DNA of 64,000 nucleotides from an uncultured Clostridia bacterium (GTDB lineage: Bacteria > Bacillota > Clostridia > Christensenellales > UBA1242): positions 1 through 64,000 of the forward strand of contig CATLHJ010000002.1 in NCBI GenBank assembly GCA_949949035.1, given 5' to 3'. Every line of letters begins with the position of its first letter. Position 1 is the stretch's first letter. Of this stretch, positions 11,216-12,796 are shown one piece after another. The translations under genes were made by a program, and so were the position numbers. A model generated the notes under the pieces. The model had not been told where the DNA came from. It saw nothing but the letters and a program-made list of their open reading frames with translations, and searched no databases.

Positions 11216-11244
11216 TTGTCAGTGGTGCAATTGAGTGGTATAAT
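11216..11244 (+). promoter_or_regulatory. Strong promoter of the repeat-switched surface gene
   Basis: TTGTCA (11216-11221), a 17-base spacer and TATAAT (11239-11244), with 8 bases to ATG 11253. Its strength and position argue that ATG 11253, upstream of the CAAG repeat, is the true start. Confidence 0.8.
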
Positions 11245-11252
11245 AAATTATT

Positions 11253-12796
11253 ATGGATAAGACAACCGAAAACTTGCAAGCAAGCAAGCAAGCAAGCAAG
11301 CAAGCAAGCAAGCAAGCAAGCACTTTTTAACTTTAATTGGTAGTAGCGTGGTGGCCGCCGTACTGGGAGTGGCGGTAATTATTGGTTGTGTGTGCGGCTT
11401 GATTATCCTCAGTACGGCGGCCGACGACGATAATATTATCAGCATTGGCGAAATTTATGATAACCCGACAAACGTGCAGGCATTATACAACGCGTTGGCG
11501 GGGGACGGCGCGACCTACGAACAAATTAAAACTTTGGCGGGACAAACCAAAAACGCGGCGGACTTCCGTGAACAAAATGGTAAAGGAATTAATGTTATCT
11601 TTGGTGGGCAGGAGTGGGAAATCGTCTATTTATCGACCACTATGGATGGTCGACCGATTTTGACCTTGGCGTGGCCGGGAAAGGCATCTTTCACCACATC
11701 AGTGTGGAATTCCTTTCGTAATGACAGGACTTACGAAGTCTATCCTAGTGATATGTACGGTACCAGTTACATACGTACCAAGGTGCTAAATAACGCGGGT
11801 GGTTACTCAACGGATGGCGGTAGAACCTTAAATAACCTGGTAACCCCTGACCCTAGTCACCCCCTAGCCAAATTTACGGTGCCTAGTGTGACAGGTAGCG
11901 TAACCGACGTCATCGTTAAACCTAGTCAGGTCGAGTGGCAACGGACAGGGCAAATTGGCTCTACTTATCACAAGTTCAATCATAAAAACGAAAACTGGGG
12001 TGAAGAGCCAAGTACGGGGTGGTGTACATACTTTGATAACGAAAGTTACCCTGATAATTATAGTAATAATTACAGTAAGATTGACCATTATGGAGATTGG
12101 CAGGATGATTATCTATGGCTGCCATCAGTAACCGAGTGTAAAGTAATTTGGCAAACCCATGATATGGATTATGACTTTACCTACCAACACCTTTGGACGC
12201 GCTCTGGAAGTAATAGTTACCATGCCTTTCCTGGAGAGTACCCTAATTATACATATAACAACCTTGTTGATCAGGAACGTAACCTTTACCCGGCGTTGCA
12301 CCTTGATTTGTCGGCACCGGAATTGTGCGTGCACAAGTACGGCGCGTGGGAATACGTCAGTACCGACGCCGACGGCATGATTCACCAACAACGGGTTTGC
12401 CAAAAGTGCGGTCGGGTGGGTGAACAGCGTACGGTTTACCCGACTTTGCACCACATAACAATTACCGGTGATGTGTCCGGTAATCGGGAACAGTTAACCA
12501 TAAACTTTTACAGCACGCGAGTGGAAGTAATTCCCGATCTACTGACCTTTATCCAGTTACTTAACGACGCAAACAGCGGGGTATTCGTGGTGGTCGACGG
12601 CAGTAACGTGCGGTACAACGAACCCGGTCAGGGCAGGCGCGAGTACCCGGTAACGGCGGTAGTAGCGAGTAGTACGGCCAACACTTTCGGCTACTGTTAT
12701 TTGAACGACAATGGTAACACGGTAACGGTGTGGCGTAACCTGACAGAGAGAATAGAGATAACCGACAGCGAGATGGCCAATCCCGATGCGGCGTAG
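11253..12796 (+). CDS. Phase-variable DUF6273-like surface protein, out of frame in this sequence
   Basis: The promoter-linked ATG 11253 reads through (CAAG)11 and stops at 11328-11330 after 25 codons. The main frame runs from about 11321 to 12796 and has no start of its own except an unsupported GTG at 11348. Adding one repeat (12 copies) or losing two (9 copies) joins the frames into 515 or 511 residues. The joined protein has a hydrophobic export segment ending STAADDD. It then has a domain resembling DUF6273-type surface modules (QEWEIVYLS, DYLWLPSVTE, LWTRSGSNS, YPALHLDLS), a C/H..C..C module (CVHKYGAW, CQKCGRVGE) and a beta-rich tail without anchor. The central part is more AT-rich than the ends. 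Expression probably switches by slipped-strand mispairing. Confidence 0.78.
11277..11320 (+). repeat. (CAAG)11 tetranucleotide tract inside a coding 5' end
   Basis: Eleven perfect CAAG copies start 24 bases into the gene at 11253. A four-base unit shifts frame with every copy change, and in all three frames it encodes the same QASK peptide repeat. Only the sequence beyond the tract changes frame, which is the classical design of a phase-variation switch. Confidence 0.93.

Follow-up and report, generated by a model that had tools for sequence, protein, structure and literature searches.

Repeat-Driven Switching in Described Systems

Repeat-driven phase variation is best known in pathogens, namely Haemophilus, Neisseria, Campylobacter, and the mycoplasmas. 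Each Haemophilus influenzae genome carries 12–21 tetranucleotide loci, including the paralogous hgp genes with CCAA units; the arrays coincide with the start codon or follow it closely, and they change at a rate near 1e-4 per generation (PMC2651432). In the opa genes of Neisseria, CTCTT repeats occupy the coding region of the leader peptide, and recombination diversifies the proteins; in opc, a poly-C homopolymer in the promoter changes transcription (PMC3960869). Within the Clostridia, Clostridioides difficile CwpV is a phase-variable cell-surface protein linked to phage resistance (PMC4737114). Searches of open-licence papers for repeat-based switching in Clostridia or Firmicutes found nothing on point, which agrees with the remark in the original prediction that such switching is not known as a standard feature of Clostridia of this type.

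The locus at 11216–12796 of the window (the whole 64-kb stretch of DNA that was analysed) is read here as a translational ON/OFF contingency switch that would operate by slipped-strand phase variation and belong to an Opa/Hgp-like repertoire, at a probability of roughly 0.87. The evidence, all of it drawn from sequence, consists of the array and its reading frames, the promoter geometry, the existence of a family, the copy-number differences among its paralogues, their mosaicism, and the constraint on their coding regions. From these we infer slippage in vivo and its rate, the leaderless start, surface exposure, and a benefit that may lie in escape from antibodies, phages, or changing ligands. 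The original prediction, a tetranucleotide-switched exported gene in the OFF state, is still the best reading and is supported by both the sequence anatomy and the family.

Anatomy of the Proposed Switch Site

The features of the locus are as follows.

11216..11221, + strand: -35 element TTGTCA, with a 17-nt spacer to the -10 element
11239..11244, + strand: -10 element TATAAT, 8 nt 5′ of ATG 11253
11253..11330, + strand: OFF-frame reading from ATG 11253 to TAA 11328–11330, 25 codons
11276..11322, + strand: tetranucleotide array (GCAA/CAAG)11.75, the proposed switch, of perfect period 4 and tested by simulation
11324..12796, + strand: ON-frame coding sequence 3′ of the array, 490 codons plus stop
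11324..11398, + strand: predicted hydrophobic leader or export signal, common to the family (alignment, leader search, model helix 2–25)
11426..12325, + strand: DUF6273-like domain, putatively extracellular, in which the family members diverge (PF19789 matches of relatives, AlphaFold model)
12326..12793, + strand: C-terminal module, 92–97% identical to that of the paralogue on contig C25

The coordinates match exactly the TTGTCA-17-TATAAT promoter that had been proposed to point at ATG 11253. In the CAAG register the array is (CAAG)11 from 11277, 24 nt past the A of that ATG, as originally noted, and it is the sole tetranucleotide array within the window. It did not arise by chance, because it spans 47 nt, whereas first-order Markov simulations of the window (100 replicates) gave longest period-4 runs that averaged 11.2 nt and never exceeded 15 nt. 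The predicted early stop is also present, with TAA following 25 codons, and the ON-frame coding sequence is intact despite being out of frame with ATG 11253 at 11 copies. The position of the array thereby alters the reading frame in the manner of a contingency locus, with 25 codons at 11.75 copies against 515 codons (stop at 12794–12796) when one unit is added to give 12 copies. Removal of two units (9 copies) gives 511 codons, and both counts agree with the 515 and 511 residues anticipated. The observation that the repeat encodes QASK in every frame was likewise borne out for (CAAG)n.

Under the proposed mechanism, a strong and probably leaderless promoter would start the transcript at or beside ATG 11253, and slipped-strand mispairing during replication would add or remove 4-nt units of the array. 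One third of copy numbers (9, 12, 15, and so on) would link ATG 11253 to the frame of the exported protein; the others would end translation after about 25–32 codons, and the assembled 11 copies would correspond to OFF. Independent switching at 15 or more loci would then give each cell a random subset of surface proteins, the middle domains of which may be diversified further by recombination.

The promoter geometry is nearly uniform across the family. The spacing is 17 nt in 20 of the 22 family arrays with a visible promoter (one has 18 and one 16, the latter a poor pick), and the gap between TATAAT and ATG is 6–8 nt in all members from the genome of the window (G000) in which TATAAT is present. 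Genome-wide, TATAAT near an ATG is commoner than the reversed control (177 vs. 101). The mRNAs of the window gene and its family, in which the -10 element stands 6–8 nt from the start codon and no Shine-Dalgarno is seen, are probably leaderless, because this distance would put the transcript start at or beside the ATG (predicted at the ATG or 1–2 nt before it). Leaderless mRNA is an addition to the original prediction, where it was absent.

A different start would make the array irrelevant, in that the protein could be produced constitutively from GTG 11348, 3′ of the array, with copy number having no effect. This GTG does open 482 codons and is still 5′ of much of the hydrophobic segment, but it has no recognisable ribosome-binding site upstream. 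Furthermore, coding homology among the paralogues (FLTLI..., RKLTI...) reaches the end of the array, upstream of 11348, and every member whose upstream sequence is visible has a strong promoter and an ATG 5′ of its array. Constitutive translation from GTG 11348 is therefore regarded as extremely unlikely.

Arrays Across the Genome

The window belongs to a metagenome-assembled genome (MAG) of 1.09 Mb and 42 contigs, where it is contig C2; the MAG is 89.75% complete. The repeat census of G000 covered the stretches around matches, and its totals are lower bounds for other units. The original prediction is here extended from a lone gene to a paralogous family, as G000 has no fewer than 15 tetranucleotide arrays, that of the window included, with 8.5–31 copies as read from the MAG assembly and four different units, distributed as follows.

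CAAG arrays: the window, C1:132k, C4:61k, C8, C12
GAAC arrays: C1:72k, C1:85k, C10, C22, C23, C25
AACA arrays: C6, C26, C29
AGGC array: C4:15k

Arrays longer than about 50–125 nt are often found at contig ends (C10, C22, C23, C25), where the counts are minimal. Family members L045 and L048 have no array. In all 14 G000 arrays with a visible start, the array begins 3–23 nt 3′ of an ATG. Among the 11 readable intact copies, four are ON (C8, C12, C1:85k, C6) and seven are OFF (the window, C4:61k, C1:72k, C23, C26, C29, C4:15k). For the family as a whole, this mixture of states and copy numbers runs counter to the outcome that had been named as evidence against switching, namely a fixed 11 copies with translation from GTG 11348. 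Four ON copies in 11 fits the one in three expected from random frames, but random assembly error predicts likewise, so the ratio alone proves nothing. The copy at C1:132k (L009:4589–4645) is locked off by a C-to-T change that makes an in-frame TAA in its CAAG array.

Copy number differs between close relatives, as in a contingency locus, these being paralogues rather than alleles of one locus. The C4:61k and C12 arrays have 14 and 18 copies (OFF and ON, respectively) with flanks of 104 nt that contain 1 mismatch. Near-identical flanks also surround the arrays of C1:72k and C1:85k (24.75 and 20.25 copies) and those of C29 and C6 (10 and 27 copies).

An assembly error could in principle account for the frameshift, with the array having a coding or structural role only, a true count of 12 (or 9) everywhere, and a gene that is constitutively ON. 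The fragmentation of the MAG into 42 contigs and the location of several arrays at contig ends are in keeping with this explanation. However, the 47-nt array fits within an ordinary short read, and seven OFF arrays among 11 would require many errors, all of them in arrays. It is also difficult to reconcile with the occupation of the same site by four different unit sequences, and with the point mutation that locks one paralogue off. Assembly error is accordingly considered very unlikely.

A repair defect was considered as a cause of the repeats and set aside, since MutS is present in G000 and a gross defect is not needed. One MutS-domain protein is found in the taxonomic family of the window, and two in most other families of the order (G010–G011 and G035–G042 were compared).

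The Protein Family

Two related hydrophobic leaders, FLTLI...IIGCICGL and RKLTIFG...ITACAVNI, were aligned directly 3′ of the arrays, and with a leader profile 14 strong copies were recovered from G000 and 7 from the same-genus genome G001. Several of the family proteins have a C-terminal membrane segment, and its presence in some paralogues, together with the hydrophobic leader, suggests a surface location. Outside the C-terminal module, most of the middle of the window protein is 27–52% identical to the C25 paralogue, and C4:61k and C12 have leader and C-terminus in common but not the middle. The family appears to be a product of mosaic exchange, with a common leader, a divergent middle, and common C-termini.

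This mosaic structure, along with the locked-off copy at C1:132k, could also be expected if the OFF copies were decaying pseudogenes, silent cassettes that serve as recombination partners for a few expressed copies, slippage having no regular role. Yet, with one exception, the OFF copies have a strong promoter, a start codon, and a long reading frame that is still intact, and the arrays of the ON copies are equally long. The OFF copies do not behave as pseudogenes, because dN/dS is 0.12–0.31 in the compared family pairs, most of which include one OFF gene (0.13–0.29 for the window gene and the C25 paralogue), which indicates purifying selection, and genes that are never read would decay. Recombination may act too, but it leaves unexplained why an array follows so many start codons. 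Silent cassettes are thus given as small a chance as assembly error, and the contingency switch is retained as the preferred reading.

Many members of the family show similarity to DUF6273 proteins. PF19789 (DUF6273) matches 19 of 33 relatives (E up to 0.01, best 3.1e-9), with scores of 21.8 bits for L009 and 18 bits for L038 against a curated cut-off of 23.5. The window protein itself has no PF19789 match and nothing significant in Pfam. The AlphaFold model of the domain at 11426..12325 has a pTM of 0.88; it matched no PDB fold at E ≤ 0.001, and the full-length model matched neither PDB nor viral folds at the same threshold. Published accounts liken DUF6273 to C-type lectins and count it among the targets of diversity-generating retroelements in phages (PMC10743442, PMC11792537). 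The idea of a C-type-lectin fold for the present domain comes from weak DUF6273 similarity plus these papers, and neither model matched a solved C-type lectin domain at E ≤ 0.001. A ligand-binding role is put forward only as a suggestion, because the confident domain model matched no solved fold.

A PHROGs search gave no match, and a PDB sequence search returned only one insignificant S-layer match (E 0.32). Viral contigs contained neither a relative of the family nor a copy of the leader, and a phage-borne family was rejected for those contigs.

Relatives and Taxonomic Spread

Within the taxonomic family, 4 of 147 genomes have (CAAG)6 (G000, G001, G023, G164), and sporadic CAAG arrays were seen in five genomes of other families. 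Among 297 sampled genomes of the order, (GAAC)6 was found in G000 alone; it is present also in G001. The same arrangement of the array is found in G001, and in G023, from another genus, arrays lie between a probably leaderless ATG and the hydrophobic leader. The DUF1934-mrnC-trmH neighbours of the window locus are conserved in the genus, and in the stretch of G001 that was analysed they are not accompanied by a family member; the insertion point is therefore not conserved, and common ancestry of the locus position was rejected.

DUF6273-like genes at a greater distance, from gut Clostridia MAGs, have no tetranucleotide array, and several have G9–G11. In four paralogues of a rabbit-gut MAG (L066, L067), poly-G falls at codons 6–8, just 5′ of the leader, with two in frame (ON) and two out of frame (OFF). 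The N-terminal switch position thus seems to be reused with a different repeat. Two related sequences, L049 and L050 (JAMPCO010000015 and JAMPCO010000003), come from a MAG labelled Prevotella sp. whose closest relatives, as judged from the family, are labelled Clostridia; the Prevotella label is probably wrong. Other relatives bear the labels Clostridia or Firmicutes, and it is from these labels that the lineage is taken to be Clostridia.

CAAG arrays were also considered as a mark of the protein family wherever they occur. This does not hold, as in other taxonomic families they accompany tiny membrane peptides or units that seem not to code for protein. At L155–L159 (G178), CAAG arrays come after an ATG that is probably leaderless and belong to very small proteins, each with a single membrane segment; these small genes have terminator-like hairpins downstream and several copies per genome. 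L152, L153, and L154 (G201, G181, and G267, from three families) consist of a promoter, 13–37 CAAG copies, and a terminator-like hairpin with no long reading frame, and possibly represent a repeat-bearing small RNA or peptide.

Poly-G Tracts in Promoter Spacers

A second class of repeat, and of predicted switch, is found in promoters, where poly-G of at least 9 nt directly follows TTGACA within the -35/-10 spacer. The pattern occurs at 11 distinct sites in G000 and in 9 of 59 relatives, and its reversed control had no match in any genome searched. Loci with G9–G21 after TTGACA include L122–L126, L131–L133, L179–L187, and L190, among others. Spacer lengths vary between about 14 and 25 nt, to either side of the common 17, as in TTGACA-AT-G15-TACAAT (spacer 17) on family member C13 and TTGACA-AAT-G18-TACACT (spacer 21) on C11. 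Many of the genes behind them encode lipoproteins or exported proteins.

The edge of the contig in the window has a related arrangement.

1..18, + strand: C18 tract with which the contig begins, in the place of the poly-G spacer of paralogous promoters
83..1246, + strand: exported protein of 387 aa with N- and C-terminal hydrophobic segments (paralogues L141, L142)

The tract is 64 nt from the gene at 83..1246, and the promoter of paralogue L142 reads TTGACAAAT-G18-TACACT. From this sequence pattern, the C18 tract is possibly another switch in the window. At L035:4995–5011 (G000 C10), a C17 tract (sense G17) splits the frame of a gene with a radical-SAM-like cysteine motif and may be a switch of an enzyme gene. 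A 99-nt poly-G at L127:2262–2360 closes contig C8 of G000 and may be a sequencing or assembly artefact.

Implications

The observation is real and well supported, and it extends further than first noted; it would represent a variant of a known mechanism in a group for which no earlier report was found in the literature searched. We lean toward a broader reading, in which a reduced-genome, uncultured lineage of Clostridia combines arrays that would act on translation, poly-G spacers that would act on transcription, and recombination into genome-wide combinatorial surface variation. Repeat switching would, on the same footing, be a recurrent and overlooked trait of gut Clostridia, because in related families poly-G occupies the corresponding N-terminal position.

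The presence of an Opa-like set of many loci in uncultured Clostridia of about 1 Mb suggests that commensals, too, leave their surface identity to chance. The reading of strain differences, phage resistance, and antibody coating in gut Clostridia would change as a consequence. The arrays would also explain why such MAGs show systematic breaks between contigs and seeming frameshifts; standard annotation would label array genes as broken or misplace their start codons.

Comparison With Known Systems

The family resembles DUF6273 proteins through those of its members that match PF19789, and differs from them in the unmatched window copy. It would share with CwpV the character of a phase-variable surface protein within the Clostridia, but the switch of CwpV is a site-specific inversion and does not depend on the slippage of repeats. 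The poly-G spacers would follow the same logic as the promoter of Neisseria opc, but the tract stands directly after TTGACA, at 11 or more sites in one genome (G000), and in several Clostridia families.

As in Neisseria opa, each of a set of paralogous surface genes would have its own 5′-coding repeat before or within the export signal, with switching of the translational frame and variation through recombination among paralogues. The genes nevertheless fall outside the Neisseria Opa proteins, as their units are 4-nt and of four sequences (CAAG, GAAC, AACA, AGGC) rather than CTCTT, and there is no Pfam barrel match. In addition, the array precedes the leader and is not part of it, a leaderless mRNA is probable, and the products are unrelated DUF6273-like proteins of Clostridia rather than outer-membrane barrels.

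The resemblance to H. influenzae lies in arrays located at the start codon or shortly after it, the hydrophilic repeat peptide, the paralogous set (hgp), and the comparable number of loci (15 in G000 vs. 12–21). Interrupted arrays, which have been put down to recombination in H. influenzae, may be compared with those of L009 and G023. The H. influenzae loci are spread over many genes of unrelated kinds (lipopolysaccharide, iron uptake, mod) in a different phylum with a different envelope, whereas the G000 arrays nearly all belong to one surface-protein family. Although homologous to neither as far as tested, the G000 system would appear to work like the H. influenzae and Neisseria loci.
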